From Dysidea avara (taxonomy: Eukaryota > Porifera > Demospongiae > Dictyoceratida > Dysideidae): a stretch of DNA of 64,000 nt. Where the stretch lies: contig NC_089277.1 of assembly GCF_963678975.1 (NCBI RefSeq), positions 23,634,672 to 23,698,671 on the forward strand. The letters are read 5' to 3'. Every line of letters starts with the position of its first letter. Position 1 is the stretch's first letter. Under the pieces are notes generated by a model. It saw nothing but the letters and a program-made list of their open reading frames with translations. It was not told the DNA's origin and made no database searches. The translations under genes and the position numbers were made by a program. Of the stretch, positions 4,829 to 64,000 are shown in pieces.

Positions 4829-7062
<2,234 letters not shown>

Positions 7063-7100: not shown

Positions 7101-7129
7101 ATTCATAAAAATCGATTGCATAATTGTGA

Positions 7130-8575: not shown

Positions 8576-8636
8576 CGAGATACTCTAATAGAACAGTCAC
8601 TCTAATAGAACAGTCACCCTAATAAAGCATTCAGCT
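8576..8636 (+). repeat. CTCTAATAGARCAGTCA motif, three units
   Basis: Begins with GAGATCGAGATACTCTAATA and repeats the ~18-20 bp unit to about 8636. It sits exactly between the foldback arm and the satellite, as at 29201-29272. Confidence 0.8.
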
Positions 8637-13854: not shown

Positions 13855-13885
<31 letters not shown>

Positions 13886-27600: not shown

Positions 27601-30600
27601 GAAATGCTTTCAACAAGTTGCTACAGGACTTTAAAAATAATACATTTAATGGAATTTTCTACTGACTGACTAACTAAGTAACTGACTGACTGATGCCTTC
27701 AGACAAGCGTAACTCAATAACGGCTAAGGCAGCGAGCTTTATTTTTTCACAGTTTGACATTGCTAGCCCGAGAGGTGCCTTTTGGCATACCGCAGTATGT
27801 ACAATGCATTCTTCATGAACTTACCAGTGTCCTCCTTTGTGTCCCATTCATCTTCGCTGACATCTAAAAGTGTTGATTTGGCGGTAGCATGTGATGGCTT
27901 CCCTTCGTAATGGAAAAATCGTCTGTATTTTTCATAGTAACTGTTTTGATTGCAGAGGTGCTTTTCAAACAGTTCTCGATTCGTACTGCTGTGTAACGGG
28001 TTGAACATAGCTAAAAACAAAAAATAATGGATGGTTCACTTTTCAGACGATAACTGATATAATTGGGGCACATAGGGCCATTTCTTTCTTTCAGTATATT
28101 ATATGGAAGTGCTTTCGAGTAACGGGTTGAACATAGCTGACACCGAAGCATAATGGATACTTCACTTTTCAGACAATAATTGATATAACTGGGGTGCGTG
28201 GCGCCATTTCTTTCTTCAGTTTGGTATGCATGGATTGTAGAGGTGCTTTTCGAACAGTTCTTGATTTGAAACGCTGAGTGACGGGTTGAACATAGCTGAC
28301 AGCGAAGCGTAATGGATACTTCACTTTTCAGACGATAATTGTATAGCTGGGGCATGCGGCGCTATTTTCAGATGTATTATGCCGCATGGGTTCACCAGTC
28401 ATCAAGACACACGGTAGTGTGTCGTGCGGCCCAAGAAGCCGGCGCGTAACACCCGTGAGTATATTGACAGGAAGAAAGAAAACGCAATTTTCGCACCTCC
28501 GTAGCTCTGTGCTGCCTTGATGAAACAAGACGGTTTTTGCTGTGGACACTCCCTCCACCTTCAGCACTCCACATTCCAAATTTGAGCGAAATCGCTTCAC
28601 GCGTTCCCGAGATATGCGACTTCAAAAATTGGCTTAGTTTCTTCGTTTTTTTTTTCTTCTTATTTTTCTTCCTCTTTTCGCACACTTACAAAAACTGCTA
28701 TAAAACTCGAACGCCATATCTGATCGCCTTGAAATTTGGCACAGAGAAGGGGGGTATAAAGGCGCATCTCTGTACCAACTTTGGCTGGAATACGATAAAC
28801 AGGCAAAGAGTTATGAGCGATTAATCACGAAAAATAACACCAATATGTTGTCACGCCTACAGGGTAAACCGCGTATGGGAAGAAGCTGAAAATCGGTGGG
28901 TGAATAGGTTAACTATTGAACCTCAAACCTTTTGTGGTTTGAAAGAAATCGAGCTAAAAACCAGGAAGATACAACGAAAAAACCAACAGTGTGTAACAAT
29001 TACGCAATCGAGATTAGCTAATAAAAAACGACTGCTTGCCACGTCTACCAGGTAAACAGCATGGGGTAATGCTTTGAAAATCGCTGTACAGATGGAGTTA
29101 TCATCTTAGAAAGGCTCTTCAATGGTGTAGAAGAATCAGACTTAAAGCCACGGAGTTATAACACGAAATCCAACTTGGTGTAGCAAGTGCGAGATCGAGA
29201 TACTCTAATAGAGCAGTCATCCTAATAGAGCAGTCATCCTAATAGAGCAGTCATCCTAATAGAGCAATCACCCGAAGAGAATTCAAGAGATCAGTTAGAA
29301 ACAAGTAACCTGTATAGAGATCAGCTACAAACAAGTCACCCTGTAGAGAGATCAGCCACAAACAATTCACCCTGTAGAGAGATCAGCTAGAAGAAATTAC
29401 CTTGTAGGGAATTCATGCAACTATAGAAAGAGATAATTCAGCTAGAAGAAATCACCTTGTAGAGTTCAGCTACAAAGAAACCACAATGTAGAGAGTTCAG
29501 CTACAAACAAATCGCCCTGTAGAGAGATCAGCAAGAAGAAGTTACCTTGTAGAGAGTTCAGCTACAAAGAAACCATCATGTAGAGACTTCAGCTGCAAAC
29601 AAATTAGCTGTAGAGAGTTCAGCTACAAACAAATCTCCCTGTAGAGAAATCAGCTAGGAGAAGTTTCCTTGTAGAGAGTTCAGTTACAAAGAAACCACCA
29701 TGTAGAGAATTCATTTACAAACTAGTGACCCTGTAGAGACATCAGCTAGAAGAAGTTACCTTGTAAAAAGTTCAGCTACATAGAAACCATTCTGTGAAGA
29801 GCTCAGCTGCAAACAAATCACCTGTACAGAATTCAGCTACAAACAAATCACCCTGTAGAGAGATCAGCTAGAAGAAGTTACCTTGTTGATAGCTCAGCTA
29901 CAAACAAATCACCCTGTAGAGAGATCAGCTAGAAGAAGTTACCTTGTTGATAGCTCAGCTACAAACAAATCACCCTGTAGAGAGATCAGCTAGAAGAAGT
30001 TACCTTTCAGCTACAAAGAAACCATCATGTGGAGAGTTCAGCTGTAAACAAATCACCTGTAGAGAGTTCAGCTACAAACAAATCTCCCTGTAGAGAGATC
30101 AGCTAGGAGAAGTTTCCTTGTAGAGAGTTCAGTTACAAAGAAACCACCTTGTAGAGAATTCGTTTACAAACTAGTGACCTTGTAGAGACATCAGCTAGAA
30201 GAAGTTACCTTGTAAAGAGTTCAGCTACAAAGAAACCATTCTGTAAAGAGCTCAGCTGCAAAAAAATCACCTTTACAGAATTCCACTACAAACAAATCAC
30301 CCTATAGAAAGATCAGCTAGAAGAAGTTACCTCGTAGAGTGTTCAGTTGCAAAGAAACCACCATGTAGAGAATTCATTTACAAACTAGTGACCCTGTAGA
30401 GACATCAGCTAGAAGAAGTTACCTTGTAAAGAGTTCAGCTACATAGAAACCATTCTGTAAAGAGCTCAGCTGCAAACAAATCACCTGTACAGAATTCAGC
30501 TACAAACAAATCACCCTGTAGAGAAATCAACTAGAAGAAGTTACCTTGTTGATAGTTCAGCTACAAACAAATCACCCTGTAGAGAGATCAGCTAGAAGAA

Positions 30601-33600
30601 GTTACCTTGTAGAGAGTTCAGCTACAAAGAAACCATCATGTGGAGAGTTCAGCTGCAAACAAATCACCTGTAGAGAGTTCAGCTACAAACCAATCTCCCT
30701 GTAGAGAGATCAGCTAGAAGAATTTACCTAGTAGAGAGTTCAGTTACAAAGAAACTACTATGTAGAAAGTTCAGCTACAAACTAGTGACCTTGTGGAGAC
30801 ATCAGCTAGAAGAAGCTACCTTGTAGAGAGTTCAGCTACAAAGAAACCATTCTGTAAAGAGCTCAACTGCAAACAAATCACCTGTACAGAATTCAGCTAC
30901 AAACAAATCACCCTGTAGAAAGATCAGCTAGAAGAAGTCACCTTGTAGAGAGTTCAGCTACAAAGAAACCACCATGTAGGGTGTTCAGATAAAAGAAGTT
31001 ACCTTGTTGAAAGTTCAGCTACAAAGAAACCATCATGAAGAGAGTTCAGCTGCAAACAAATCTCCCTGTAGAGAGTTTAGTTAGAAGAAGTTATCTTGTA
31101 GAGAGTTCAGCTACAAAGAAACCATTCTGTAAAGAGCTCAGCTGCAAACAAATCACCTGTACAGAATTCAGCTACAAACAAATCACCCTGTAGAGAGATC
31201 AGCTAGAAGAATTTACCTTGTAGAGAGTTCAGCTACAAATTTAAAGAAACCATCATGTGGAGAGTTCAGCTGCAAACAAATCACCTGTAGAGAGTTCAGC
31301 TACAAAGAAACCACCATGTAGGGAGTTCAGCTAGAAGAAGTTACCTTGTAGAGAGTTCAACTACAAAGAAACCATCATGAAGAGAGTTCAGCTGCAAACA
31401 AATCTCCCTGTAGAGAGTTCAGTTAGAAGAAGTTACCTTGTAGAGAGTTCAGCTACAAAGAAACCATCATGAAGAGAGTTCAGCTACAAACAAATCACCC
31501 TGTAGAGAGATCAGTTAGAAGAAGTCACCTTGTAGAGAGTTCAGCTACAAAGAAACCACCATATAGAGAGTTCAGATGCAAACAAATCACCCTGTAGAAA
31601 AATCAGCTACAAACAAATCACTCTGTAGAAAGATCAGCTAGAAGAAGTTACCTTGTAGAGAGTTCAGCTACAAAGAAACCATCATGAAGAGAGTTCAGCT
31701 GCAAACAAATCTCCCTGTAGAGAATTCAGTTAGAAGAAGTTACCTTGTAGAGAGTTCAGCTACAAAGAAACCATTCTGTAAAGAGCTCAGCTGCAAACAA
31801 ATCACCTGTACAGAATTCAGCTACAAACAAATCACCCTGTAGAAAGATCAGCTAGAAGAAGTCACCTTGTAGAGAGTTCAGCTACAAAGAAACCACCATG
31901 TAGGGAGTTCAGCTAGAAGAAGTTACCTTGTAGAGAGTTCAGCTACAAAGAAACCATCGTGAAGAGAGTTCAGCTGCAAACAAATCTCCCTGTAGAGAGT
32001 TCAGTTAGAAGAAGTTACCTTGTAGAGAGTTCAGCTACAAAGAAACCATTCTGTAAAGAGCTCAGCTGCAAACAAATCACCTGTATAGAATTCAGCTACA
32101 AACAAATCACCCTGTAGGGAGATCAGCTAGAAGAAATTACCTTGTAAAGAGTTCAGCTACAGTAAAAAGAAACCACCATGTAGAGAGTTCAGCTGCAAAG
32201 AAATCACCCTGTAGAAAATTCTGCCACAAACAAATTGCCCTGATAGAAAGATCAGTTAGAAGAAGTTATCTTGTAGAGAGTTCAGCTACAAAGAAACCAC
32301 CATGTAGAGAGTTCAGCTAGAAGAAATTACCTTGTAGAGAGTTCAGCTACAAACAAATCTCCCTATAGAGAGATCAGCTAGAAGAAGTTACCTTGTAGGG
32401 AGTTCATGCAACTATGGAAAGGGATAGTTCAGCTAGAAAAAATCACCTTGTAGAGTTCAGCTACAAAGAAACCACCATGTAGAGAATTCAGCTACAAACA
32501 AATCGCCCTATGGAGAGATCAATAGAAGAAGTTACCTTGCAGAGAGTTCAGCTACAAAGAAACCATTCTTTAAAGAGTTCAGCTACAAACAAATCTCCCT
32601 GTAGAGAGATTAGCTAGAAGAAGTTACCTTGTAGAGAGTTCAGCTACAAAGAAACCATCATGTAGAGAGTTCAGCTACAAACAAATCTCCCTGTAGAGAG
32701 ATCAGCTAGAAGAAGTTACCTTGTAGAGAGTTCAGCTTCAAACAAATCACCCTGTAGAAAGATCAGCTAGAAGAGGTCACCTTGTAGAGAGTTCAGCTAC
32801 AAAGAAACCATTCTTTAAAGAGCTCAGCTGCAAACAAATCACCTGTACAGAATTCAGCTACAAATAAATCACCCTGTAGTAAGATGAGCTACAAAAAGTT
32901 ACCTAGTAGAGAGTTCAGTTACAAAGAAACCACCATGTAGAGAATTCAGCTACAAACTAGTGACCCTGTAAAGACATCAGCTAGAAGAAGTTACCTTGAG
33001 AGAGTTCAGCTACAAAGAAACCATTATTTAAAGAGCTCAGCTGCAAACAAATCACCTATACAGAATTCAGCTACAAACAAATCACCCTGTAGAGAGATCA
33101 GCTAGAAGAAGTTATCTTATAGATAGTTCAGCTACAAGCAAATCACCCTGTAGAGAGATCAGCTAGAAGAAGTTTACTTGTAGAGAGTTCAGCTACAAAG
33201 AAACCATCATTTAGAGAGTTCAGCTTCAAACAAATCACCTGTAGAGAGTTCAGCTACAAACAAATCTCCTTGTAGAGTGATCAGCTAGAAGAAGTTACCT
33301 TGTAGAGAGTTCAGCTACAAACAAATCACCCTGTAGAAAGATCTGCTAGAAGAAGTCACCTTGTAGAAAGTTCAGTTACAAAGAAGCCACCATGTAGAGA
33401 GTTCAGCTACAAACTAGTCACCTTGTAGAGACATCAGCTAGAAGAAGTTACCTTGTAGAGAGTTCAGCTACAAAGAAACCATTCTGTTTAGAACTCAGCT
33501 GCAAACAAATCACCTGTACAGAATTCAGCTACAAACAAATCACCCTGTAGAGAGATCAGCTAGAAGAAGTTACCTTGTAGATCGTTCAGTTACAAAGAAA

Positions 33601-36600
33601 TCACCCTATAGAGAGACCAGCTAGAAGAAGTTACCTTGTAGAGAGTTCAGCTATAAAGAAACCACCATGTAGAGAGTTCAGCTGCAAAGAAATCACCCTG
33701 TATAAAATTCTGCCACGAACAAATTGCCCTGTAGAAAGATCAGTTAGAAGAAGTTACCTTTTAGAGAGTTCAGCTACAAAGAAACCACCCTGTAGAGAGA
33801 TCAGCTAGAAGAAGTTACCTTGTAGATCGTTCAGTTACAAAGAAATCACCCTATAGAGAGACCAGCTAGAAGAAGTTACCTTGTAGAGAGTTCAGCTATA
33901 AAGAAACCACCATGTAGAGAGTTCAGCTGCAAAGAAATCACCCTGTATAAAATTCTGCAACGAACAAATTGCCCTGTAGAAAGATCAGTTAGAAGAAGTT
34001 ACCTTTTAGAGAGTTCAGCTACAAAGAAACCACCCTGTAGAGAGATCAGCTAGAAGAAGTTACCTTGTAGAGAGTTCAGCTACAAACAAATCACCCTGTA
34101 GAGAGATCAGCTAGAAGAAGTTACCTTGTAGAGAGTTCAGCTACAAAGAAACCACCCTGTAGAGAGATCAGCTAGAAGAAGTTACCTTGTAAATCGTTCA
34201 GCTACAAACAAATCACCCTGTAGAGAGATCAGCTAGAAGAAGTTACCTTGTAGAGAGTTCAGCTACAAAGAAACCACCATGTAGAGAGTTCAGCTGCAAA
34301 GAAATCACCCTGTATAAATTTCTGCCACAAACAAATTGCCCTATTGAAAGATCAGTTAGAAGAAGTTACCTTGTAGAGAGTTCAGCTACAAAGAAACCAT
34401 TTTGTAAAGAGCTCAGCTGCAAACAAATCACCTGTACAGAATTCAGCTACGAACAAATCACCCTGTAGAGAGATCAGCTAGAAGAAGTTACCTTGTAGAT
34501 AGTTCAGCTACAAACAAATCTCCCTGTAGAGAGATCAGCTAGAAGAAATTACCTTGTAGAGAGTTCAGCTACAAAGAAACCATCATTTAGAAAGTTCAGC
34601 TTCAAACAAATCTCCCTGTAGAGAGATCAGCTAGAAGAAGTTACCTTGTAGAGAGTGAAGCTACAAACAAATCATCCTATTGAAAGATCAGCTAGAAGAA
34701 GTCACCTTGTAGAAAGTTCAGTTACAAAGAAACCACCATGTAGAGAGTTCAGCTACAAACTAGCCACCTTGTAGAGACATCAGCTAGAAAAGTTGCCTTG
34801 TAGAGAGTTCAGCTACAAACAAATCTCCTTGTAGAGAGATCAGCTAGAAGAAATAACCTTGTAGAGAGTTCAGCTACAAAGAAACCATTCTGTAAAGAGC
34901 TCAGCTGCAAACAAATCACCTGTACAGAATTCAGCTTCAAACAAATCACCCTGTAGAGAGATCAGCTAGAAGATATTACCTTGTAGATAGTTCAGCTACA
35001 AACAAATCACCCTGTAGAAAGATCAGTTAGAAGAAGTTACCTTTTAGAGAGCTCAGCTACAAAGAAACCATTCTGTAAAGAGCTCAGCTGCAAACAAATC
35101 ACCTGTACAGAATTCAGCTACAAACAAATCACCTGTAGAGAGTTCAGCTACAAACAAATCTCCCTGTAGAGAGATCAGCTAGAAGAAGTTACCTTGTAGA
35201 GAGTGAAGCTACAAACAAATCACCCTATTGAAAGATCAGCTAGAAAAAGTCACCTTGTAGAAAGTTCAGTTACAAAAAGAAACCACCATGTAGAGAGTTC
35301 AGCTACAAACTAGTCACCTTGTAGAGACATCAGCTAGAAATGTTACCTTGTAGAGAGTTCAGCTACAAAGAAACCATCATGTAGAGAGTTCAGCTGCAAA
35401 GAAATCACCACTGCCCAAATTTCAAGGCAATAGCTCTTTCCAATCTGAAGTTATCAATTGTCAAAGTTGGCAAATTGGATGTGTGGAAGGCCCCTTTTCG
35501 TAAATCCGGTCACATATGTATTATATGTGACCGGATTTACGAAAAAGGGTCTTCCACACACATCCAATTCTATGAACTTGAATGACCATACCTTTGTGCT
35601 CAAAGAAGATACTAACCTGAAATTTTGTTCATGTATTAACCTATGTTGTTACTCATCACTGTCCAAATGTCAAGGCAATACTATTTTCCTATCTGACATT
35701 ATGAACTGCCAAAGTTCGTAAATTGGATGTGTGTGGAAGACTCCTTTTCGCAAATCCGGTCACATATATATAATTTGTACATTTACTGATAAAATATTTA
35801 AAGTACATTTTCTTATTCCTGTAGTAAAGAAAAAAACATAGGTTAAAAAAGTCCCAAAGCTGGCCATAGGCCAGCTTTGGGGTATACAAATACAAAAAGA
35901 AATGAAATCTAATCCAAAACAGCCAAGCTGTAAAAAAAGTGTGCGGCCCTCAGAAAGGCTATGGTGAAAAAAGATGTGAAATCCAAGGTGGTGGCCAAGA
36001 AATGGCTGTGATGGTAGGTTAATGGTAAAAATTTTAATAATGACAATTCAGGTGAATTTTTGTGCCGCTTCACAAAATTTACCTGAATTGTCATTATTAA
36101 AATTTTTACCATTAACCTACCATCACAGCCATTTCTTGGCCGCCACCTTGGATTTCACATCTTTTTTCACCATAGCCTTTCTGAGGGCCGCACACTTTTT
36201 TTACAGCTTGGCTGTTTTGGATTAGATAGTATTATTTGCAAAAAAATTAAGAAACAAGTGCACACAAAAATTGGTATTTTTAACTAGAGTAGGGACCATA
36301 GCACATCGATAAAAGGTACTCAAACAAGTTGGAGTAGTCTACAATATTAAATAACAGTAAAACAATAAGAAGTGTTATATCCCTACTGTGCATTTCCGTT
36401 ATGGTATCTTGAGCACAGTAGGGATATAACACTTTAAAATTCTCTATTGTTTTACTGTGATTTAATGTCATGCACTACTCCAGCTTGTTTCAATGCTTTT
36501 TATCGATGTGCTATGGTCCCTACTCTAGTTGAAAATTCCAAATTTTTTTATGTACTTGTTTTAATTTTTTAATCCGTGAAAAGAAGATGGGTTAGTTTTA

Positions 36601-40807: not shown

Positions 40808-41018
40808 ACATCAAGACACACGGTAGTGTGTCGTGCGGCCCAAGAAGCCGGCACGCAACACCCGTGAGTATATTGACAGGAAGAAAGAAAACGCAATTTT
40901 TGCACCTCCGTAGCTCTGTGCTGCCTTGGTGAAACCAGACGATTTTTGCTGTGGACACTCCCTCCAACTTCAGCACTCCACATTCCAATTTGAGCGAAAT
41001 CGCTTCAAGCGTTCCCTA
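40808..41018 (+). mobile_element. foldback element X, truncated arm
   Basis: Matches 28393-28600 from AAGACACACGGTAGTGTGTC to GAAATCGCTTCAAGCGTTCC. The match stops exactly where the left inverted repeat of the two-gene element begins (41019). The continuation of X is not found beyond the right end at 50727. Confidence 0.8.
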
Positions 41019-41257
41019 CAGTGGCCCGTTCTGGTCTATTTCCCGGAAATTTCTTTCATTTCTGGGAAATTTCCGAGAAATTTCTTCACTTTTTCTCATT
41101 TCTCAACAGTTTCTCTAAAGTTTCTCACCTTTTTCTCAATTTTTTCTCTATTCTTGAAACTTTTCCTAAAATTTCTTTAGTACTTCTTGATCTTTTCTCG
41201 TTTCTCAAAAATTTCCATAGAATTTCTTTGAGAAATAAGACGTCATGTGCACGTGAT
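41019..41257 (+). repeat. left long terminal inverted repeat
   Basis: Runs from CAGTGGCCCGTTCTGGTC to GTGCACGTGAT. It is rich in repeated (A)GAAATTTC and TTTCTC words, giving internal short palindromes such as GGAAATTTC and AGAAATTTCTT. It matches the right repeat at about 95%, with one 12-bp TTCTCAATTTTT length difference and a few substitutions. Confidence 0.9.
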
Positions 41258-41357
41258 CAGTACTTCTCTAAAATTTACATAGAATTTCTTCGTGGCATAC
41301 GACATCATAATGTGTAATTAAGAGTTCTTACTGTACAACTTAAAAGTGTGCGTGGAT

Positions 41358-44300
41358 ATGGCAGGAAAATATGAAGTTTCTTTTTTGTTTAAGTGCGTTA
41401 AGGAAGGCAAGATTACGGGAGACAAAGCCATCAATATCATTGGCAAGGGCAGATCATCAGCCACCACAGGAGCTATTATGAGATATGGACCCAATCATAG
41501 TATCCAACCCCCTACACCAACTGCAAGTAACTTGCAACCGTTATCTTGTTACACATACTGAACGTAGTTCGAGCACGTGCATATTGACTTTAATGTATAA
41601 ACCTGGTTTTGGTCTGTAGAGCTGTCTGGTTTTTTGTCAAAACAAAATGTTCTATATGCAGTGCTCATGAGCAATGGTGTTTTAAAAGCAGGATCTTCTG
41701 CCTTGAGCTCTTATCAGAAAATATCTTTTTCGTTCATAACATTTTTATTGTAGCCAACTTGTATTTTTCCTTTTAATGCCTGCTTTAATTTGTATAATAT
41801 GTAGCTAGTCGCATGAAAGTCTCCTGTTCGGACCGTATTGCCTTAACTTCTTGACATTATCAATTAGAGATTATAAGTACCCCCTCAGAATAAGTTTTTC
41901 AGGAAAAGTTTTGTCATCTGCCCACACCTTTTTGTTCGGCAACTTTTTGCATACAATTTGTTGTTACCGCCAAGGCCTTAACCTTAATTTGCATGCAACA
42001 ATTTTGAACAAGAATGGTATGGATGATTCACCAGACCCCTTCCTAGAAATGGGGGGTTTTAAACTTCTAATTGACGAGTGGTGCTTACGAGGAACGTGAC
42101 TAGCTAGTGTTTTATAAGCATCACCAGCAACATGGCACTTTCATTTTACTAGGTAGCAGTAAAAGAGCTGAGATTATTGAAAAATATAAGCAACTCCAAC
42201 GAGGAGAACGATCAAATAGCTCTAAGAAGACAAGATTTGCTGCTAGTGTTCAAAAGAGAAACCCAGTTTTAATTAAGATCAGTGTATAACTAACTATTCT
42301 AATAAGCATCAGTGGTGGATCCAGGGGGTTTGAGAGGGTTCCATGGAGCACCCTTTTTGAAAAATCATCAATGAAGCACAATCAAAATACTCTAATAGAG
42401 CATTCACTAAAATCTAGTGATGTGCGATATAGCTTATTGTTTACATTGCATATTGCGATTATTGCAAGCAAAATTATCACGATTATGATAATTATCCCGA
42501 CAATTAACATGTAACATTAGATGCCAGTCTACAGGTGAGAACTTATACAAACAACAAGTTTCTGAGTGCAGTTGTAACTAGTGATGAAATTTTCTATCAG
42601 AGAAAGTTTCTTGTTTATTGCAATTACTATGTATTTAGTTGAAATTTTTATATCACAATATAGCTTTGTCACAATATGATTATCATGAGATACATGGTAT
42701 ATGATAGATTGTACCATCACTACAATATTGTAACAGTCCAGGATGTAATCAAATGGCAGTTGCCAAATTGGTGTTACTGTATGTTGAACTTGAGAAAAAC
42801 TGAAATTCACTCAAAATTTCTGCCGCTTTTGGTCTGAGCCTTCAAAAGTGTGGGTTGCAAAAGTGGAACCCCGAAAGTATGGATCCACCCCTTGAGCATT
42901 AGCCACATGTGTGCAAATGACTCAATAAGTTTGTTCGATTATGTTAGATTACACTTGGTAGAATGAGGTTCGATGATGTAAAGCATCGTGGTGTACACTG
43001 CAAGGAACTTGGACCTAATGTTGGGGTTTCTATGGCACCCACAGCAACGTATGATGAATTGGTTGAGGAAGGAATAAAATACTTCTTCAGTTACAAGGAA
43101 AACGCAGCAGGTGTGGCAAGTCGTGAATATTTTTTGGCAGATAGGCAAGGAAGCAAGTTGCCCAACACCTTGCAAGGCCGCCCATGGGTTTTGGCAGATT
43201 ATCTACACATGCATGGCATGTTCCCATCAAAGACTAGGATATTCTGTGTACAAGTAAGCAGTCTTGTGTATATGCTGAATGTGGGATATTTAATCATGTG
43301 TATTGGAAATGTATATAGCAAGAGATCATCGGTATTTCCAGTGAGCCAGTTAATGTTCATTCTCCAATACCAGAGCAAGGTACTTCTCATGTTGTTGCCA
43401 CAATACCATCTGACTCAAATGATGAGGTGGCTTTGAGAGATGTACAACGCAGCAGTGACAAGAAAATAGGTAAATATATCACAGCTTTGTAACACAATTT
43501 CAATCTCTACACATGTACGAAGATGAACACTTCATTCCATTTTCATCATTTACACTGGGACGTAAACTTGGTAAGGGGGGTTATGGATTGGTGTTCCTGT
43601 CTGAACTAAATGGAACGTTTGTTGCTGCAAAGCAAATTCCATTGACATCAGATGAGGTCAACATGAGTGAGATAAATGTTTTAAGGTGATAAAATAGTTA
43701 TATAGCTATATGATTTCCATACGTGCTTTTATAACATTTGTTTACACTGAACAGCTCACTGCACCACCCTAATGTTGTTGTGTTCATGGGGTATTCCAGA
43801 GATGAACATCACATATACATCTTGACTAATTATGTACATGGTGGAGATTTATTCAACTTCCTTTTCAAAGAGGTACATTTATTGACTTGACTGAAATCTT
43901 ACATGTGTAATTATCGTCACAGAAAATACCACTCTCAGCAAGTGACCAACTGTCGATAACCGATCAAGTGGCACAGGCACTTGCTTATATGCATGGACGA
44001 AAGCCTCCTTTTATTCATCGAGATGTAAAGCCAATGAACATATTGGTAAGTACATATGTGACCGGATTTCACATAACAAGGCTTCCACACACACAAAATC
44101 AAACTTACGATTTTACCAGAAATGGATTGCTGGTCTAATACACTATCATATTTCACACTGTACTTCCTTCAGCACTGACAAGTCTGGTTTCTGTAGCAGC
44201 TTTCTTCCGACCCTGTCAAAGCCACGAGTGTGAGATTGGCACCATTAAATGGCCATGGCTTTGTGATAATGGTGTGTGGTGAGCCAGAGGCGTAGCTAAG

Positions 44301-46424
44301 GGGGGGCAAGGGGGGGCATTTGCCCCCCCATCACTAAATGATTTTTTTTTTAAACCTTCGTCACAAGTTTACCAGTATTAAACTGACACGCAAATGACTG
44401 TAAATTATGTACACTACTACGCGGTATCACCAGGGGCTGCTAGTGAATGCGCACACACAACATTCAACTCGCTCGCGAATCCATCGAACGAAAATATTAG
44501 ACACATACTTCTATATTTAGCCTAGATTACTCGCGTGATAGAACATTTTTGAATCTAAAAAGAGTGACCCGCTTCTCCACGGCAGGAGTCACAACTCACA
44601 AGTGACAAAGGAGACCAGATGACGCTATGAACCTACTGTCTACGAGGTGATAAAGTGTTAGCTAAATAAATGTACCAAGTTTATTTTATCGAGTCGATCA
44701 CACTGGACCTTTGTACGTATGGCAGTGCAGTCTGTTTTTACTTAGTCAGTCAGGTGGATCAGTCAGGCTTACAAGTTCTGCTAGCAAGACAGGTGGGATT
44801 TCGTGCAATACATGGCATTTGAATTTCGCTGAGTGAAGTGAGTGAATACGTCATCCTGTCAGCAGTGTGCTAGGACTGCAGCACAGGCTGTGGCTAACGT
44901 AAAGTAACCTGTATTTGCACTAAAGTATTAGCTCTACCGGACTGTGGATGAATTTGTTGGAGTACAGTTGTGGCACGTGCGATGATGCTCGACAAATATA
45001 GCTACCTCGATTGGAAGCAGTCTGTACCGAAATGGTTACGTAGCTAGTTATTTAAGCTGTAATAATACAACACCGTATGTTGGCTAGCCCACCATTGGGT
45101 CATTAGCCTTTTTTGCAATTATGAATGATTTTGAGTGTTTCGTGGGGGGCATGCCTGCCCCTCCATCACCTTCTGGCTAGCTACGCCCCTGTGGTGAGCT
45201 GGGACTTCACAGAGAGCTCGCCAATAGTGTTCTCAGTCAATTTGGAGTAATTTGAGGGCCATGGAGGGCCCAAACTTGGCCTCTGGATTTCAATCGTCTT
45301 CTTACTCCATTTTATACCCGTATATTAAGACCACCGTCCACTCTCACCCTATTACTACCATCTGTGATATTATTACCCGCTCGAAAAAGGCTGCTCAAAA
45401 CAGGGCAAATCTTGGGTATCAGAAATGTATACACCCACTCAGTGATAGCTAGTGAACAATTGGTGCAAATTTTGTTTGCACAGCTGTAGGCACTGGGAAG
45501 TTATTACACAATGATTCCTTAAAATCGCCATATCTCCTAACAAAGCTTTGTGCGTCGAAGTCTTGTTTTGTCAAATTCAGTCACATATGTAGATTGATGT
45601 AATATAGGCAAGCATTGTCTGTGTACTTGTCAAGTTCTTCGGTGCCTTAATAGTACTACTAGAGAAAGATTGGGTATAAATGTTATGAGATGTCACTGAT
45701 ATGGTACCTTAAAAGCTTTGTACATTGTGCAAATGAACTTCATAAGTACTTCTGTATTACTTTGGACTTTCTGCTGCACATAAAACAATATACCATATTT
45801 ACTTGGTTAAACGCTGCACCTTTAATAGTTGCCGCACTGAAGGGGGCCCACAATCGATTGTGAAAATAAGGGCTTAAACATCGTTCACGTGTATCGAATG
45901 GTGGTTAAGCTTGAATAGTCGCCACATCGATTTTTGAGACTATAAGGTAATAGAAGCCGCAGCGTTTAACCAAGTAAATATTGTACTTTTAAACTTATTT
46001 ATGAATAAAATAATTTTATGGTTTGTTAGAAATTATAATTATTGTTCACAGGTTGAAAAGGGAACTTTCCATGTATACTTAACAGACATAGGATTAGCCA
46101 GACTCAAGACAACAGCTTGTACAATGACAAATGTTGGAAAAGCTGAAGGCACATATTATTCTTCACCAGAATGCTTTTTTGGAAACACATGCCTTGCGTC
46201 TGATGTTTGGAGCTTTGGTTTAGTCTTATCTGAAGTGTTCGGAAGAAAGCATGCGTGGGGAAAACTAATGACCCATGCTGAGATGGCACAACTTATTGTG
46301 GCTAAACTCTACCTTCCATACAACAACCATCAGAAGGGTGTGTGAAGGTTGTTTGCAGTATGATGCGAAAAAGAGAATCAATATGATGACTGTGATACAA
46401 CAACTAAGGGAAATAAATATTTAA
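41358..46424 (+). CDS. protein kinase with N-terminal accessory region, 8 exons, 3' frameshift
   Basis: Exons: 41358-41526, 42153-42265, 42948-43253, 43319-43469, 43523-43685, 43755-43872, 43923-44045 and 46052-46424. All phases agree, except that the exon 2 donor is weak. The first ~245 residues hold a basic linker (ERSNSSKKTRFAASVQKRNP) and a region of about 100 residues of a kind I cannot name (ATYDELVEEGIKYFF, GRPWVLADYLHMHG). The kinase domain follows: glycine loop LGRKLGKGGYG, lysine in FVAAKQIP, HPNVVVFMGYS, catalytic HRDVKPMNIL, metal-binding DIG in place of DFG (LTDIGLARL), EGTYYSSPE in place of APE, and SDVWSFGLVLSEVFG. All catalytic residues are present, so activity is possible. 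Near 46320 the frame slips by one nucleotide. The final helix (RRVCEGCLQYDAKKRI, then TVIQQLREINI) is in the next frame and stops at 46422-46424. It is probably a TKL- or sponge-expanded group kinase. Confidence 0.82.
42416..42722. mobile_element. possible TAGTGATG-ended MITE in kinase intron 2
   Basis: The left end TAGTGATGTGCGATA and the right end GTACCATCACTA are roughly inverted. The interior has repeated GATTAT/TATCACGAT words. No target duplication is visible. Non-coding. Confidence 0.4.
44057..45585. mobile_element. TGTGACCGGATTT-TIR element in kinase intron 7
   Basis: Starts TGTGACCGGATTTCACATAA and ends CAAATTCAGTCACA, with TA on both sides. About 600 bp of its own sequence remain; the rest is the nested hAT-like element at 44285-45191. 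Related to 35524-35764 (CTTCCACACAC near the end is shared). Confidence 0.8.
44285..45191. mobile_element. CAGAGGCGTAGCTA-TIR element with 8-bp duplication
   Basis: Left CAGAGGCGTAGCTAAGGGGG, right GGCTAGCTACGCCCCTG. Both flanks carry TGGTGAGC (44277-44284 and 45192-45199), a perfect 8-bp target duplication, which supports hAT-type transposition. About 907 bp, non-coding. Nested inside 44057-45585, itself inside the kinase intron. Confidence 0.9.
45791..45985. mobile_element. MITE with TACCATATTTACTTGG TIR
   Basis: Left TACCATATTTACTTGGTTAA followed by ACGCTGC, mirrored at the right by GCAGCGTTTAACCAAGTAAA. Total 195 bp. It lies in kinase intron 7 close to the last exon. Confidence 0.85.
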
Positions 46425-49400
46425 CAACTCAAGACACTTTAGATGTTTGTACAATACTATAGCTTCATCGGCATTTGTAGGCTTTGAAATATTATCTTCA
46501 CTCATTACATGTTCAGCTAAATCAGTGAACTCCTTTGGTACAGAGCAGGGCTTAGTGACACTCCATTCACGTGCAGATTCTACATCATCATTACTCACGG
46601 TGTGTCTATATGATCGTGTCCCTAATAATTGCATAACATTTTAATCAAATTTAAGTTTATCATACCTTCATCTTCAGGAAGGAAATACAGCTTATCTGGT
46701 ATACCACCAGGATTATAATTACTTGGTCGTATTCTATGAATGTTCCATTCATGTGCCACGTAATCCAATTCAGCTTGTATCGAGTCCATAAAACAGTATC
46801 GAAGGCAGTTACTACACACAAAATCCATTGTTTAATTGGTGAGAAGTATGTGTATTTTGACAAATTCTATAGCTGTGTTAGCCAAACTATAATCCAGCCA
46901 ATATACATTGTCTCAGAAAACATGACTATTTTAATGTTTTTAATTTGACATTGGCCTACACAAAATTTTCAATCATAGTAATGTACTTGATATTGGTAGA
47001 ATGTTCACATAACCTAATGCATAAATTGTGTGACCAAATGCCTAATCATACATAGTTTGTTCAGCACTGGTGATTCTAGACCTGATATACAGGTGGGGGG
47101 ACAGCATAAAATGTTGTATGACTGTACCATAAAGCAGAATTTTAAGGGAGTCGGGGGGGGCCCAGAAGCTGCAGGATTTTTGCAATTATAAGGATTTAAA
47201 ATGGCTTAAAATTAGTGCTAAAACTAACAATACGTATCTATACCACAACTTTCCCCCTAAATTTTAGAAAACTTATTTTTCAACAGGGTGGGCCTGTACC
47301 CCCCCCCCCCCCCCCCAAGTAGAATCGCCTATGTTGTTCAGACGCTGTGACCAAGCATTTTTTTTCTTATTTCAAGCATTGCCAATATTTCCTTAAACTG
47401 GATGATGCATGCAAACAAAATTGAAATACTTTAATATAATTGGTTTGCTTCAAACTCCAATGCATTTTAATTGTTTACAGTAAGTTTATTAGCATATATG
47501 CAACAGCACCATACATATATAATCAACACTCTTTTACTTACATATGATATTCACTGCTGTCATCCAGTTCACCAGATTCTCTCAAAGCCTGTAATCATAG
47601 CAATTTTGCACTTATCACAAGTGAAACACTAATTTCACATACCTTAAAATAATCCATCCACCATTGCGCAGCATTCTTGCGGAGCTGTCCCCACCAAGCC
47701 TCAATACGCTAGTTTGTGCACGATTAAAACAAACAAATAATGAAATACAAGGTAAACAAACTTGATTGGAAGTAGATCGGCCATACATGAAGCTTTTCTC
47801 CTTTGCAAAGGGATCGTCATGTTGATCTCGCAAAAATGGCTGCAAAAATGCTATATTTGTATTCTCAGTTCCTCTGTCTGTTCTTAAAATTGTAGGACAC
47901 CCTACAGTAATAAACACATCAGTTTTAATTTATATGTTTAGCTATCATATGCCTTAAAACATACCACATTCAATTGATTAATTAAACACTGCAGCTATAA
48001 TTAGCCTATAATATAGTATAAAAAACTAATGAGGATATTCAAGGGTAACCGGTGCTATCAGTACAAAGCAGCTCTTAGACCTCAGTGCATCAAAAAAAGA
48101 GTACGTACTTATTACAATAGCTGCAATGTGTTTCACCACAATGTACACTACAATAGACAAAAGGTATGGCATACAGAAACACATTATAGAATAACTATTG
48201 TTTGTTCCCTTCTCTATTACTGTAGGATTACCTTTCTAACACTACAGATACATAATTATTGTCACCGTGAGGCATGTTCACTGACACGGTATAGCTACAG
48301 CCACTATTCAAATGTCAGACTTTTTGTATCAAATCTAAAAATGTACGTTATTATAGTACATTTGGATACTATAATAACGTACATTATAGTACATCTTGGC
48401 CTTATATGTTTACATATACTGTATATCCGAGGATCAAAATGCCATCCTGCAGGAGCTGAGAATTAGGAAGGATGAGGGTGGGCAACTGTACCTTCTGCCA
48501 TTTTTGAGGGCAGCACCTATTCACTTATTCCAATGCCCAAAAGGCAACTATCTTATGGTACTATTCAAACGCAATGTCGCTATGTGGATTGCAAGTTGAT
48601 GTTTTCACAAAATTTTCATCCTTGGAACACATCATCAGTAGACAATTAAAGTAAAGCAATTCTAAAATATTAAAGCTTAAGTCATTCAGCAAAAAAGTTG
48701 AACAAGTAATATCAAGAGTTAGAGGATTAATGCTTGGTTGTATGTATACTATATTTATCTCATGTTTTCAACTAACCTGCTAATTTTTCTACACAATTTA
48801 AAAAGTACCCTGCAATAATATATGGATCATTATTTCAGGGGGATACATGAAGCCAAAGGATTCTACGTGAGTAGCTGTTAAAAGGTAAGATAAGGATTAT
48901 ACGCTTGTTTTTAATATTGCTTACCTGTCAATGCAGCCATGTATGGCAAAACCATACGGCTTTAATTTATCATATCCGTCACAATGCCATATATAGCCTG
49001 GCCCCTACAGTTCACCAGAAAAGTGGACACAAAGTACAATAAAGCATTATCTGGTGAAATGAATACACCTTGCTGTGATATATCCTTCTCTTCAGTTTTT
49101 TTCCTTTCCTAGCTGCAGCGCCTTCTGGGTTATCCAAAGCTGACAACATCATCACAACATTTCTGTAGCAAAATGTTGCTTACCAACTAAATAAAGGACC
49201 AACTGACTCACCTTCCAACACGCAAACTATGTTTCTCTTTCAGCCTCTTGTGCAATATGCGGTAACCAATGCAGTTCCCTGACACCTCCCTTTCTTTCTA
49301 TGAATACAGTATTGCAGTAATGATAGTCACATTTATTTTGAAAGACCGTAGAATGAATGTAAACAATTGTCCCAATGTTGGATCCATGTAGCATGGAAGT

Positions 49401-50312
49401 TGGAACAATTGCTTCTCACCCTTCTTTAAGCTACACAAAGCCTGCAACATATAATGAAAGCAACTCATAATAGGATAGGCAGAAATTCATAAACAACAGA
49501 TAGAATAGCCCTCATAGCTATGCAGCAGGTTGTATTGTAGTACTATGATACCGACTATTCAACACTGACAATTTTATAATTCTTGACCTGTGAATAAGAA
49601 ACTTTTCCATTACAAGATGTGTGGAGAACATTTTACCAGTGTCCTCGCAAGATATTGACCTGTTACAATTTTAGATTGACCGTTGTTACAGATCTGCCAG
49701 CCTACAGCAAGTGCTTGTGTGTTACCTCTTGAATACTATTTGCTTTATAGGCTATAATATACCATTCAGTGTAATTTCTGACTACCACAGATACAGGCTG
49801 GGGTAGGGGGGAATTGATTGCTATTAACTGAGGCAAAGATGTGGGTCCCTTGAACGTTTGGATACTAAGATACTGCATGTATTCATGTAAGGGGCCACTC
49901 ACGCATATCGACTCGCAACTTGGAATTCATAGATCAACACCACAAGATTGCACATCCCTTCCTGTGACTGTCCCACTAGTTATTTTCCTGTGCTTTACTT
50001 GAATGCCTATACTTCTCCTATAAGTAAGGAGCTGAAAATTACAGATTCCCTGCACCATCCGCAATCTCAGCCCACATCTGTGGACCATGGTAGTTGGGGA
50101 TTTAATAGGTGCAAAAAAGTATATCTCCCACTAGGGACCTACAGATAGGCTATAGACTAAACAGCTGTGGAGAAGGGAGTATGCGAATGAACTACTTTCA
50201 TGGATACACAACTTACTTTAATAGCCGCTTCGACTTCTTCAAAGGAAGTTTGACCGTTTTTGTCTCTTCTTCGCAAGTCCATCCTCTTCAATCGCTTCCT
50301 AAGTTGATCCAT
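46404..50312 (-). CDS. integrase-core (rve, D-D-E) protein, 10 exons, 356 codons, one in-frame TGA
   Basis: Exons: 50312-50217, 49297-49212, 49162-49069, 49004-48925, 48874-48777, 47901-47762, 47708-47643, 47588-47542, 46811-46666 and 46621-46404. Every junction is GT-AG and phases agree; the sum is 1071 nt. The start MDQLRKRLKRMDLRRRD is the only ATG giving this frame. An N-terminal helical part (CIGYRILHKRL, a likely DNA-binding region) precedes the catalytic core: WHCDGYDKLKPYGFAIHG (Asp ~101), TILRTDRGTENTNIAF (Asp ~161) and NQRIEAWWGQLRKN (Glu ~202), spacing D-59-D-40-E. This fold cuts and joins DNA ends in retroviral integrases and related transposases. Codon 132 is TGA (48837-48835) within SYSRRILWLHVSP.NNDPYI. 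It means decay, readthrough or a sequence error. The gene starts just inside the right inverted repeat and converges on the kinase. I take it as the likely transposase. Confidence 0.87.
47060..47330. mobile_element. possible MITE in integrase intron 8
   Basis: GGTGATTCTAGACCTG on the left and AGTAGAATCGCC on the right are weakly inverted. They are followed inward by GGGGGG and CCCCCC runs respectively. The C-run at 47299-47316 may have length error. Family not assigned. Confidence 0.4.
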
Positions 50313-50472
50313 TGTTAAGTTTATACCGTGCCGTAAGTGTAAAAACTTGCAAATGTCCTCAATGTATAATCGTCTTTGAAATAACGTATTATCAAATCTT
50401 CCTCACCCACTGTGTGCAAAGCAGGAATGGCCATGATAGTGCCATGCTGGACACCATCCCATAATAACAAAT

Positions 50473-50727
50473 ATCACGTGCACATCTAATGACGTAGTAT
50501 TTCTCAAAGAAATTCTATGGAAATTTTTGAGAAACGAGAAAAGATCGAGAAGTACTAAAGAAATTTTAGGGAAAGTTTCAAGAATAGAGAAAAAATTGAG
50601 AAAAAATTGAGAAAAAGGTGAGAAACTTTAGAGAAACTGTTGAGAAATGAGAAAAAGTGAAGAAATTTCTCGGAAATTTCCCAGAAATGAAAGAAATTTT
50701 CGGGAAATAGACCGGAACGGGCCACCG
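50473..50727 (-). repeat. right long terminal inverted repeat
   Basis: The reverse complement starts CGGTGGCCCGTTCCGGTC and ends GTGCACGTGAT. It matches the left repeat at 41019-41257 with few differences and one extra TTCTCAATTTTT unit. It probably contains the integrase promoter; no TATA box is obvious. Confidence 0.9.
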
Positions 50728-50959
50728 TAATTACAATATATCATGCCATCATTAAAGAGTTTCTATAATTGTGGGTGGTTGCATGAGGGTCTACGAAGTG
50801 CTGTGATCGGAAGGTGATGTACATGCGCTGATGTTGAAGTTTCACAGGCACTGAAGGGCTGGGGCGGGATTAGAGATGTGCACGGGTAATGTAGCAGTAA
50901 ATTACTTCAACTGTATCACTACAGCGGGTATGAAACAATTGGCTATAGTTATGTACGGC
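50728..50959. other. no gene recognised
   Basis: Right flank of the two-gene element. It does not resemble repeat X, which forms the left flank. Confidence 0.45.
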
Positions 50960-51717: not shown

Positions 51718-54513
51718 CAGTTTATTTTTATTTTATTATTTTTATTTTAATACTTTTTAATGCAGTTCAGGACTGCATTAAAGGTCAGTGGGTAATAGAT
51801 ATGCCCACTGCCAAAGAAACATACATACAATACAGTGCAATAACTAATAATTACAACTGTTAGTTACTTATAATTACAATAGATAGCTAGAGATTGTTAA
51901 AATTGGTAGAAATTGGCGCTCTAGAGCAGCGGTGGCAAGGGCACAAAAGGTGAAATGTACAAGCTCTCTCAGGGTTGAAGTTATTAGTAAAATGCGACCA
52001 TAAGTAGTTAGTTAAACGATATTTAATTGTGTTGGTAGATAGTGAAAGATCAATGACTGGTAAGTAATTGTATAGTCTGGCTATCCTGTTAAAGTAAAAA
52101 TGATGTTGTGTTACTGATGATGTCCTTGGATGATTCAGTTTTTGGTTAATCCCAGATCTGGTGTTGCCTCTTGCAAAAGTAATGTAGTTGTAGATGTTAA
52201 AATTATCAGTGGGTGACTTTAAGGATTTCATTAGAAACAGTATATCTTGGAGTTCGTAGTGATACATGAGAGGCAGGAGATGCAGTTGTTCCAGTCTGAG
52301 TTTGTATGAGGATGTATAATCGTTAAGAATATATTTAGTGGCTCTTCGTTGAATGCGTTCTAGTGCAGTAATGTCTCTTATTAGTTGAGGCCTCAATAGT
52401 TGTGAACAATATAATAGTTGTGATCTGACTAGTGCTAGGTATAGACGTTTCTTTGCCTCAGCACTGTTAACCTGGAATGTTCTTCTGATAAGTCCTAAGG
52501 TTTGGTAAGCTTTCATACATGTGTTGTTATAGTGTGCTGACCAGCTGAGGTCAGATGTGAATGTTACTCCAAGATCTTTATGCTGTGCTAGACATTTAAT
52601 AGGATTTCCATTGATGGTGTATGTAGGGGGGACTGTTGTAGTCGAGAAGAAACGTAAATGAATAAATTTGGATTCGTTGAAAGGTAAGTCAGTCAGGGTG
52701 CTCCAATTAGAAGCTCTGTTGATATCAGTTTGTAACTTTACAGTATCTTCACGAGATCTAATTGCATATAGAAGTTTGGTGTCATCAGCGTATATAAAAG
52801 GAGTTGCAAATTGAATGAATTCGGGTAGGTTGTTAATGAAAATGACGAATAACAAAGGTCCTAAGACACTTCCTTGGGGCACCCCTGAATGTACATAACA
52901 TAATTCTGATAGTGAATCTCCTATCTTGACACATTGATAGCGATTGTGTAGATATGCTTCAAACCACTGTCTTGCTTTACCAGTTATTCCAAAGGTTTGT
53001 AATTTGCCAAGTAAGTGGTGGTGAGAGACAGAGTCAAAAGCTTTCTTGAAATCCATGTATACTACATCCACTTCACATTTGTTAGGTTCAAAGACTTTTT
53101 CTGCAAATACTAGTAGCTGCTGTAACGTAGATCTTCTAGGAAGGAAACCAAACTGATGTTTGGTGGATTGTTCTCTGACACGATTAATTATATTATTATA
53201 CACAATTCTTTCTAGAACCTTCGATAAAATACATAACAGTGCGATGGGCCTGTAGTTACTCACAGAACTTTTGTCCCCATATTTGTACACAGGAACCACA
53301 CAATGAGTGCGCCAGTCAAGAGGAATAAAACTGCATGATATACTCGTGTGAAAAAGATGGCAGATTATATGAAGTAGTGGCCCTGCACAGTGTTTGAAGA
53401 TTTTTGGGCTAAAGCTGTCAATGCCACAAGCTTTGGTTTCGTCAAGAGATATAAGTAAGTCGAGGACGTCAGAATCAGAAAACAGAATATCTTGAACATG
53501 AGGAGTGACACTGCTTGATTGTAAGTCAGATACAGATGATGTTGAACCTGTAGATGTAGAAAAAACTGAGTGGAAATAATTGTTAAATAGTTGAGCTTTT
53601 TCCAAGTCAGTGGATGCTGATTCATTTGTGTGGTACATTTTAGCAGGAAAGCTTTCTCGCCCTTTGATACTTGATATATATTTAAAAATTTTGTTACTAT
53701 TACTGTGAGCATAATTTAAAGCTAGATTTGTTTCATAATCATGCTTTGCTTCAGTTATCATCTGTTGTAATTCCCTTTGTAGATCCTCCACTTTAAGTCT
53801 TTTCCTTTCTGTAGGATGTCTCACAAGTTGTCTCTTAGCAGTGCGGAGGCACTTGATTTTGTGACGGATTGTTGGGTTAAACCACTTGGGATGATTTGAT
53901 TCTTTAATAGAGATCTTAGAAACATATAGATTTAAAGCACTATTTATGGCAGTTTTCAGGTATAGCCAGATAAACTCGACATTTTTAGAATTCAATGCTA
54001 AGGTAAAGTCATATTCTGTAAGGAATTGGTTCATGTCCTCCCAGTTAACTTTATTGTAATCTAATCTTTGTATACGTATTTTTGTAGGTTTGCTGAGGAC
54101 ATGGTTAATGAGAAGTTTTATCAAATAATGGTCAGATGAGAGGTTGGGTGGTAGGTTTGTGCAGGTTTCAATATGTTGAAGGCCACTAATATTAGACAAG
54201 GCTATGTCCAGGGTGTTCCCAGCGCGATGCGTGGGGCCAGTTATGCATTGAATCAAATTGAGTCCAAATACCGTACTACTTCTGCGAAATCATCAGCTGT
54301 GGGGGAACTACCACTGTAGATACTCCAGTCTATGTCAGGAAAATTTAAATCTCCCAATAATACAATGTTTTGGGTACTATCGAATGAATTGAGGTATGCC
54401 ATGAGTGAGGTATTATATTGATCAGAACAGTTAGGTGGACGATATATCAGACACACGAGCAAATTTGGGTCTATCTCAGCAGAGACTATTTCTAAATCAT
54501 TTGGAGAGGACAA
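51718..54513 (-). mobile_element. CR1-type LINE, nearly complete ORF2, one frameshift
   Basis: The minus strand 54513-54253 encodes the end of an endonuclease (LLVCLIYRPPNCSDQYNTSL, VLLGDLNFPDIDWS). After a frameshift near 54275, 54256-51887 continues with GNTLDIALSNISG and SSDHYLIKLL (the catalytic SDH), then the RT: CGIDSFSPKIFKHCAGPLLH, VYMDFKKAFDSVSHHHLL, SGVPQGSVLGPLLFVIFINN and an intact FIYADDTKLL box. The C-terminus has ALERIQRRATKYIL and ends at 51887. The 3' UTR has a GGCAGTGGGCATA...CCCACTG stem and a T/A-rich tail at about 51718-51760. The endonuclease N-terminus and ORF1 are missing. This is the best-preserved LINE in the window, but not active. Confidence 0.9.
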
Positions 54514-62143: not shown

Positions 62144-63897
62144 TCATGTCACCATAGCTCTTATTTCTGTTACAGAATTCGTTTCATTTTCACTATTTTC
62201 TTCAACATTACTGTTCAATACATCTTCAGCTTCACTATTATCATCTGACATTAAATCAGTTTGGACAATGTGGTAACCTTCTTGTTCATGGCTGACTGGA
62301 GTATCTAGACACTTCCACTCACAGAACAGCGAGGAGATGTAGTTACTCCAATATTTCTTTGCCATGATGGACTCTGATGGTGACGCTTGTTTAGGAGTTA
62401 ATATGGTGAACATTATTACTCCAATTAAAATCATGAAGAATGCCAAGAAATAGATGATAGTAAACTAAAGAATATAAATAGCAAACATGTAAAAATATTA
62501 CATATGTACACAAATGTATTAGACATACAGTGCACAGTAGTAATGGCATTTTAAACATCATTTATTGTACATACATTAATTTAAATGACTAGAGCAGTTT
62601 ATTCACTTTTGTCTACATTTTTAGAAGTCCTTACATACTCAAACATTTGCTTTAAACTCTACAGGTGGCATGTTACAATAAATATCACTGGTACCAGATT
62701 CAGAAAATACGTATGCAGATATCAGGAGCAGGGCCCCAGCCTGAAAGGGGCCACAGGGGGCCCCATTAAGTTCCCCTTGAATACCTGCTAAAAAGATCAA
62801 TATACTCTATTAGAGCAGTCAAAATCTAGATGCTCTAATAGAGCAGTCACAGTATTCTTTGAGGAGCAGTGTAGCAAGCTATGTATGTAGTTCTAAATAA
62901 GAAGATATAGTTGGTGAGGGGCAGCTAACGTCATTGTCAACACGTAATGACTTGTTTTCCAGCTTACGGATAGGCTGAAGTTGTGATTCAGAGTGGAACT
63001 CTCCTTGCACCTGGGGCCCCACTTTAACTCTTTGCTGCCCTGGGCCCCTTAATTTCTGTGGGCGGCCCTGACCAGGAGTCCATCAAATATGTTATGGATA
63101 AGGTAAATGTAGCATACTCCATACACTTCTAACATTACAAAATTTGACATGACATATTACGTTAATGATGAAATAATTGTTCTTACACACAACAGGGATG
63201 CACAGAATGGGTTGCTACTTCATTGTGTTATGTGAAGACAATAAAGCTGTATTTTAGGAAGGTAATGGAGTCGAGAATAAACTTACAATAGTTGACTGGG
63301 TAATGTTGCATTGTTATTGACTAAACAATAGTTATCCAGTTCTACATGTGCTGCGACTCTTTTGTCATGTTGTTTTACTTCATTTCTATATCTCCGCTTC
63401 ATGGTGCTAGTATTATGATGCAATTGAGCATGCGTCTCTATAAAACAATAAGCAGTTTTAAAGGTTCTTTTTTATAGTACATAACAGCCATGTTTGAATT
63501 CACATCTTTACATAATGATATCCCTTGTCCATACGGTTTGACACTCTCCAGCTGAAGTACATAGGTCAGTCAATTGAATTATATACTGTGTATTGGTGCA
63601 ACCCTATAAATAACTGCATCACTCACTTTATAATTGAACAGAAATAATCCCCAACAGAGGTTGTATACATTTCCAGTCAATATGGACAGGTTGACTAGCG
63701 TAGCACTGGAGTACTTCATTGTAATGGGAGACATGACATAGAAACAGTATAAACAAAGTGCAAATCCAACATAGAACAGCACTAGAAAAAGAAAGTATGC
63801 ACGTAAATATCCACCGTAGTACCATATACTGTAGAATGTAAGGCTACGTGGAACTTTGAGACCCTTTACCAATAGGACCACAGTCTTGTTCAAATAG
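62144..63897 (-). CDS. SLC35F1/F2-like transporter, last two exons (5' part outside the window)
   Basis: Exons 63897-63627 and 62464-62144 join in phase 0 at a strong GTGAGT donor and TTCTTTAG acceptor. The first encodes membrane helices FLFLVLFYVGFALCLYCFYV and the conserved SSATLVNLSILTGNVYNL with CWGLFLFNYK. The second continues FTIIYFLAFFMILIGVIMFT, then a polar acidic cytoplasmic tail (SDDNSEAEDVLNSNVEENSE) to the stop. SSAT.VNLSxLT...Y.L..GLFLF.YKF is the hallmark C-terminal region of SLC35F1/F2-type drug/metabolite-superfamily proteins. About eight upstream helices are missing because the gene continues beyond 64000. The intron (62465-63626) holds a MITE. Substrate unknown. Confidence 0.75.
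62729..63070. mobile_element. CAGGGCC-TIR MITE in transporter intron
   Basis: Left CAGGGCCCCAGCC, right GGGCGGCCCTG. Flanks ATCAGGAG (62721-62728) and ACCAGGAG (63071-63078) match at 7 of 8 bases. About 342 bp, with two units of the 20-bp motif at 62793-62850. Confidence 0.8.
62793..62850 (+). repeat. CTCTAATAGARCAGTCA motif, two units
   Basis: Leader AAAAAGATCAATATACTCTA then a second unit GATGCTCTAATAGAGCAGTC. Inside the MITE at 62729-63070. Confidence 0.82.
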
Positions 63898-64000
63898 CTA
63901 AAAGTTCATTTGTCATTTGTGTCATGGTTATCATAAAACAATAAAGCATTACTTACAAATTGGTATCTAGTAGTTAATTTTTATTCACCATTTTACAACT

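Follow-up and report, generated by a model that had tools for sequence, protein, structure and literature searches.

A decayed transposon candidate in the sponge Dysidea avara pairs an integrase gene with a eukaryotic-type kinase gene

Results

Two convergent genes between long inverted repeats

We analysed 64,000 nucleotides of the Dysidea avara genome (NCBI RefSeq assembly GCF_963678975.1, contig NC_089277.1, positions 23,634,672 to 23,698,671 of the forward strand), referred to below as the window and numbered from its first base. Between positions 41017 and 50729, a protein kinase gene on the forward strand (Pkinase) and a D-D-E integrase gene on the reverse strand (rva_4) converge within a pair of long inverted repeats (Table 1). 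A first-pass annotation made from the letters had described two convergent multi-exon genes between arms of 239 and 255 base pairs (bp), about 95% alike. Both the genes and the arms are real; the arms are those of Table 1 without the terminal TA, and they are 97.1% identical. The arm-to-arm alignment has 234 identical columns out of 241 and 7 mismatches, with gaps of 11 and 5 bp. Its local alignment score is 409. Among 1000 evenly spaced window pairs that avoided the locus the best score was 33, and a chance origin of the inverted repeat was rejected on this basis. Searching the window with blastn (E≤1e-3) gave no other copy of the 240-bp repeat; the right arm had a partial match of 45 bp in the left subterminal stretch. 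With TA counted in, the ends of the element read TACAGTGG and TACGGTGG (TACAG on the left and TACGG on the right).

The kinase gene begins with the ATG at 41358, 100 bp inward of the left repeat, in agreement with the distance first proposed (about 100 bp). For the integrase ATG a distance of about 160 bp inside the right repeat had been given, which suits the later ATG at 50312, whereas the first ATG, at 50434, is 38 bp inside the repeat. The two convergent coding ends overlap by about 21 bp, with the TAA of the kinase tail at 46422-46424 and the integrase stop codon at 46404-46406.

Table 1. Positions of the element, its exons and its nested insertions in the window.
Feature	Position	Strand	Remarks
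Host dispersed repeat, cut off at the proposed insertion	40809..41016	+	95.7% identical to 28400-28608
Left terminal inverted repeat	41017..41257	+	Starts TACAGTGGCCCG; repeat alignment; outer edge also given, as a separate criterion, by where the flanking repeat breaks off
Kinase exon 1	41358..41526	+	MAGKYEVSFLFKC...; open frame, GT/AG boundaries; no Pfam family at cut-off
Kinase exon 2	42153..42265	+	Weak donor, 3' boundary deduced; frame, splice signals
Kinase exon 3	42948..43253	+	5' boundary deduced; frame; no Pfam match at E≤1
Kinase exon 4	43319..43469	+	Frame, splice signals
Kinase exons 5-7 (N-lobe and HRD loop)	43523-43685, 43755-43872, 43923-44045	+	Pkinase 8.1e-36; CTR1 alignment
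Nested inverted-repeat element enclosing the hAT-like one	44051..45591		Arms 84%; last kinase intron
Nested hAT-like nonautonomous element	44285..45191		8-bp target duplication TGGTGAGC; last kinase intron
Third nested inverted-repeat element	45791..45985		Arms 91%; last kinase intron
Kinase exon 8 (D-I-G, SPE, DVWSFG)	46052..46424	+	Frame TGA 46343-46345; tail in another frame, TAA 46422-46424
Integrase last exon	46404..46621	-	Stop codon 46404-46406; overlaps kinase tail by about 21 bp
Integrase exon	46666..46811	-	NCLRYCFMDSIQAELDYVAHEWN...
Integrase exons with second Asp, with Glu (RIEAWWGQ), and a third	47901-47762, 47708-47643, 47588-47556	-	rva_4 match, splice signals; 3' boundary of the third uncertain
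Integrase exon with in-frame TGA	48777..48874	-	VSP*NNDP
Integrase exon with first Asp	48925..49004	-	WHCDGYDKLKPYGF; Pfam match, frame
Integrase exons	49297-49212, 49162-49069	-	Frames, splice signals
Possible small integrase exon, weak	49420..49441	-	From splice signals only
Integrase first exon	50217..50434	-	Frame change between ATG 50434 and the conserved frame (own ATG 50312)
Right terminal inverted repeat	50473..50729	-	Read inward starts TACGGTGGCCCG; repeat alignment

The kinase gene

Open frames and splice signals delineate eight exons between 41358 and 46345, which encode a protein with a C-terminal protein kinase domain (Pfam families Pkinase, PF00069, 8.1e-36, and PK_Tyr_Ser-Thr, PF07714, 1.6e-35). 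The best match, top among 2569 distinct matched sequences, is the plant kinase CTR1 (8.9e-29). In the CTR1 alignment the glycine loop, the lysine of VAAK, a glutamate in the helix that follows, HRD, the aspartate of D-I-G and the PE of SPE are all retained, and the catalytic core therefore looks usable. The predicted kinase is of the eukaryotic type, and its HRDVKPMN loop is presumably that of a Ser/Thr enzyme. An alpha-kinase identity was rejected: PF00069 and PF07714 matched, and no alpha-kinase family matched any of the element's gene pieces in Pfam at E≤1. The part N-terminal of the kinase domain, taken as pieces of 98 and 147 residues, matched no Pfam family at cut-off, the best being SHOCT-like (0.068). 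A putative ubiquitin-like domain in exon 3, which companion genes of animal relatives would share, was considered and dropped; the single-sequence structure model of this exon (predicted local distance difference test score, 42) was too poor for use.

The integrase gene

The reverse-strand gene comprises about eleven exons running from 50434 to 46404, some exon joints being provisional. Its conceptual product matches rva_4 in Pfam at 8.3e-33, and rve at 0.013, which is under the cut-off of that family. In the same conceptual protein the catalytic Asp, Asp and Glu stand in WHCDGYD, RTDRGTEN and RIEAWWG, at spacings of 58 and 40 residues. The only NCBIfam match at E≤10 was IS481 (1.4e-4, 21.5 bits against a cut-off of 224), and a PHROGs search returned transposases, the best at 3.3e-8. 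Searching the PDB by integrase sequence gave a single match, to a ribosomal protein (E 0.98). The conceptual integrase contains no HHCC pattern and matches no zinc-finger family in Pfam at E≤1, these queries beginning after the frame change in the first exon. Likewise no H2C2 zinc finger was found; the 5' end of the gene is broken, so such a domain may have been lost. A structure model of the first integrase exon consists of helices of moderate confidence, and none of its 180 Foldseek matches reached E≤0.001.

Frame lesions and nested insertions

Both reading frames appear to be damaged. The integrase gene has an in-frame TGA in the exon at 48874-48777 and probably also a frameshift between its first ATG and the conserved frame, although a start at ATG 50312 would make the lesion in the first exon moot. 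The kinase tail is probably frameshifted too: the frame stops at the TGA at 46343-46345, and a kinase-like tail goes on to 46424 in a different frame. We also considered that short introns might replace the frame breaks; inspection by eye found none of usable phase that would bypass the integrase TGA or the break in the kinase tail. The last kinase intron is 2006 bp long and consists mostly of nested inverted-repeat insertions (Table 1), one of which we take to be hAT-like from its ends and the length of its duplication. We read the copy at 41017-50729 as old and not autonomous.

The left border and the terminal TA

To its left the element adjoins a dispersed repeat at least some 600-800 bp long, which elsewhere in the window forms an inverted pair (7112-7715 and 7783-8580) and a third copy (28400-29200). 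The copies at 7783-8580 and, on the other strand, 7715-7112 are about 70-72% identical to the 28-kb copy. All three run on past the point at which the copy at 40809 ends with ...GTTCCC at 41016, and in a four-way alignment their continuations beyond the break read GAGATATG, GAGATACG and AAGATATG. The inverted repeat starts at 41017, the very next base. We place the insertion junction at 41016/41017, because two independent criteria, the break in the dispersed repeat and the start of the inverted repeat, meet there at one base.

The same comparison bears on the terminal TA. The first-pass annotation had given the ends as CAGTGG and CCACCG with TA outside them. TA is indeed found at both edges; it most likely belongs to the element itself, because at the break the three other repeat copies show GA, GA and AA, and TA in no case. 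TA as a target duplication was not favoured on the same count.

Discussion

A candidate IS3EU transposon with a kinase gene

On balance, 41017-50729 probably represents an old, non-autonomous cut-and-paste transposon, most likely of the IS3EU kind, that carries an integrase gene and a eukaryotic-type kinase gene. The proposal of the first-pass annotation, a single mobile unit made up of both genes, is supported by the long inverted repeats, by a left border that breaks a dispersed repeat at the first base of the element, and by the overlapping coding ends of the convergent genes. According to Kojima and Bao (2023, PMC10045372), TA..TA ends occur in every complete IS3EU family, 6-bp duplications are usual, and IS3EU lacks an HHCC motif. 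The present element resembles them in its D-D-E transposase without HHCC, its inverted repeats and its TA..TA ends, which are formed by TACAG and TACGG as read at one junction; the usual 6-bp duplication is without counterpart in this copy. The element thus looks like an IS3EU transposon with a kinase gene, a candidate judged by the published descriptions of ends and motifs. In the same paper IS3EU/GingerRoot is not separated from IS481EU, which is itself close to some prokaryotic IS481 members (PMC10045372). With prokaryotic IS481/IS3 elements the integrase shares the catalytic core and its weak NCBIfam IS481 match; those elements are prokaryotic, however, and the match is far under the curated cut-off.

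A kinase next to a transposase has been described in rust fungi. The TET+ IS3EU families of these fungi have TAYGG..CCRTA ends and 6-bp duplications, and in all TET+ IS3EU families covered by that account a TET/JBP gene lies between oppositely oriented transposase and alpha-kinase genes (Kojima, 2025, PMC12730594). The sponge element likewise has its kinase gene opposite to its transposase gene, and its right TACGG fits TAYGG, its left TACAG being one base off. The fungal kinase is an alpha-kinase, whereas the one here is of the eukaryotic type, and no TET/JBP gene was recognised here. The earlier remark that no described family with a kinase partner was known is in part incorrect in view of the fungal alpha-kinase; among the matches listed in our search of open-licence papers, without Repbase entries, there was no IS3EU-group transposon with a eukaryotic-type kinase.

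Other known elements fit less well. Styx of Zymoseptoria, for which descent from an IS3EU element encoding two proteins has been proposed and of which degenerate copies occur, is also a several-gene element; it differs in its 36-bp inverted repeats and in its other genes, which are given as encoding GATA, CCHC and DUF3577 proteins, with no kinase among them (PMC10853768). Ginger1 and Ginger2/TDD resemble the element in their integrase-like transposase and in the length of their inverted repeats, tabulated at about 40-297 bp, and Ginger1 in addition has genes with introns and extra protein domains. Ginger elements have TGTNR ends, 4- or 5-bp duplications and an H2C2 zinc finger (PMC2836005), none of which was seen here. 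The Ginger home suggested by the first-pass annotation therefore fits worse than IS3EU, the ends being TA..TA instead of TGTNR and no HHCC motif being seen.

Polinton/Maverick elements carry DNA polymerase B and capsid genes. No family of either kind was found in Pfam among the gene pieces and 10 further frames of the element, out of 77 open frames of at least 50 residues that overlap the element region, most of them outside the Pfam search; none of the 10 (nine unassigned frames and the last integrase exon) had any Pfam match at cut-off. Searches of viral contigs gave 40 pattern matches for the kinase and one match for the integrase, no relatives among them, and no match for the inverted-repeat pattern. 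In prokaryote genomes the integrase gave 29 matches and again no relatives. Few relatives were expected in these collections. Rfam had no match in the window.

Points against this reading and alternatives to it

Several observations weigh against assigning the locus to an IS3EU transposon. The left end is TACAG and not TAYGG. The GA seen in two of the three other repeat copies is one substitution away from TA, so TA could have been the target. No second copy of the element was found in the window, by blastn with the repeat or by self-comparison of the proteins. An intact insertion with a 6-bp duplication should be followed on the right by GTTCCC and then GAGATATG; the right flank reads ATTACAATAT, so that GTTCCC on the left faces ATTACA on the right and no 6-bp target duplication is seen. 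Two blastn searches also gave no link between the right flank and the dispersed repeat.

Identical words close to the two borders (up to about 11 bp away) are 2-4-mers (TA in the ends, and TACA at unequal offsets), with no 5-10-mers among them. The best match of the repeat continuation to the right flank scores 22 (100 shuffles: mean 14.7, maximum 22), lies 1 kb off within a T-rich stretch; it was set aside as a target continuation, since 5 of 200 random window placements score as high. Since the left and right flanks do not add up to one target site, this copy would have been rearranged after insertion, be a chimera of two copies, or be misassembled. The original duplication may for the same reason be lost, and the direct duplication test with it.

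That the kinase gene starts so close to the repeat, and that the coding ends of the two genes overlap, suggests that the kinase is a standing part of the element and not a recent capture; coming from a single copy, this is no proof. It is unlikely that the kinase gene is instead a passenger without a role in transposition, taken up from the host, whole or in part, on a single occasion in this copy or a small subfamily. Such a capture would agree with the one copy known here, but the gene starts 100 bp inside the repeat, has an N-terminal part of its own, occupies its half of the element and runs about 21 bp into the integrase coding end; beside a recent graft, unrelated sequence would sooner be expected.

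We consider it distinctly improbable that the element represents a different or new superfamily of rva_4-type integrase transposons, outside IS3EU, with CAGTGG..CCACCG ends and a TA target duplication. TA at both outer edges and the missing 6-bp duplication would suit this explanation, yet the insertion point lacks TA in all three of the other flanking-repeat copies, even if one substitution could still make it. Finally, two ordinary neighbour genes between inverted copies of an unrelated 240-bp repeat would account for the lack of a second complete unit in the window and for the mismatch between the right flank and the continuation of the left target, but this is very improbable, given that one gene encodes a transposase-type integrase, that both genes start just inside the repeats, that their coding ends overlap, and that the 240-bp repeat is nowhere else in the window.

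A possible role for the kinase

If the locus is an IS3EU transposon with a kinase gene, the intact element would have encoded two proteins from convergent genes, an integrase-like D-D-E transposase and an accessory protein that joins an N-terminal part of no known family to a eukaryotic-type kinase. By analogy with the family, the transposase may have bound the long pyrimidine-rich ends, cut at TA..TA and joined the ends to a new site. As a guess, the kinase might time transposition, or make it tolerable, by phosphorylating either the transposase or a host factor for repair or silencing.

The pairing of a kinase with a transposase is already known from fungal transposons, with a different type of kinase, as described for the TET+ families (PMC12730594). 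We raise as a tentative possibility that in a lineage of integrase transposons outside fungi a eukaryotic-type kinase is the regular second gene, recruited separately from the alpha-kinase of fungal IS3EU elements. Were a kinase a standing gene outside fungi too, two kinase families would have been recruited beside one kind of transposase; phosphorylation could then be a general part of movement or of evading control, and hosts could be seeded with kinase genes. An element of this kind would provide a concrete route for the multiplication of kinase genes in a genome. The present case is one decayed copy. Should other copies keep the pair, this group of transposons would have a kinase among its recurring tools, and it would become testable what a cut-and-paste element needs it for.

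Other features of the window

Two long frames near the transposon, at 51890-54289 (reverse strand) and 25442-26497 (forward strand), match RVT_1 (4.8e-29 and 1.3e-19, respectively) and mark retroelements. Two large related repeat arrays occupy 29285-35423 and 9656-12063, with about 77-81% identity to themselves and to each other among the 60 longest matches of a self-comparison. Long simple repeats lie at 5869-6545 and 13752-14477, one a TG/CA tract and the other with a unit of four bases, read as IHTY from one strand and as MYVC from its complement. Reverse-strand frames of 379 residues (18050-19186) and 172 residues (19763-20278) appear membrane-like by eye and have no Pfam match at E≤0.01. 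A fragment at 63582-63905, also on the reverse strand, matches SLC35F (2.2e-13) and belongs to a gene of solute carrier family 35, probably a normal gene of the host.

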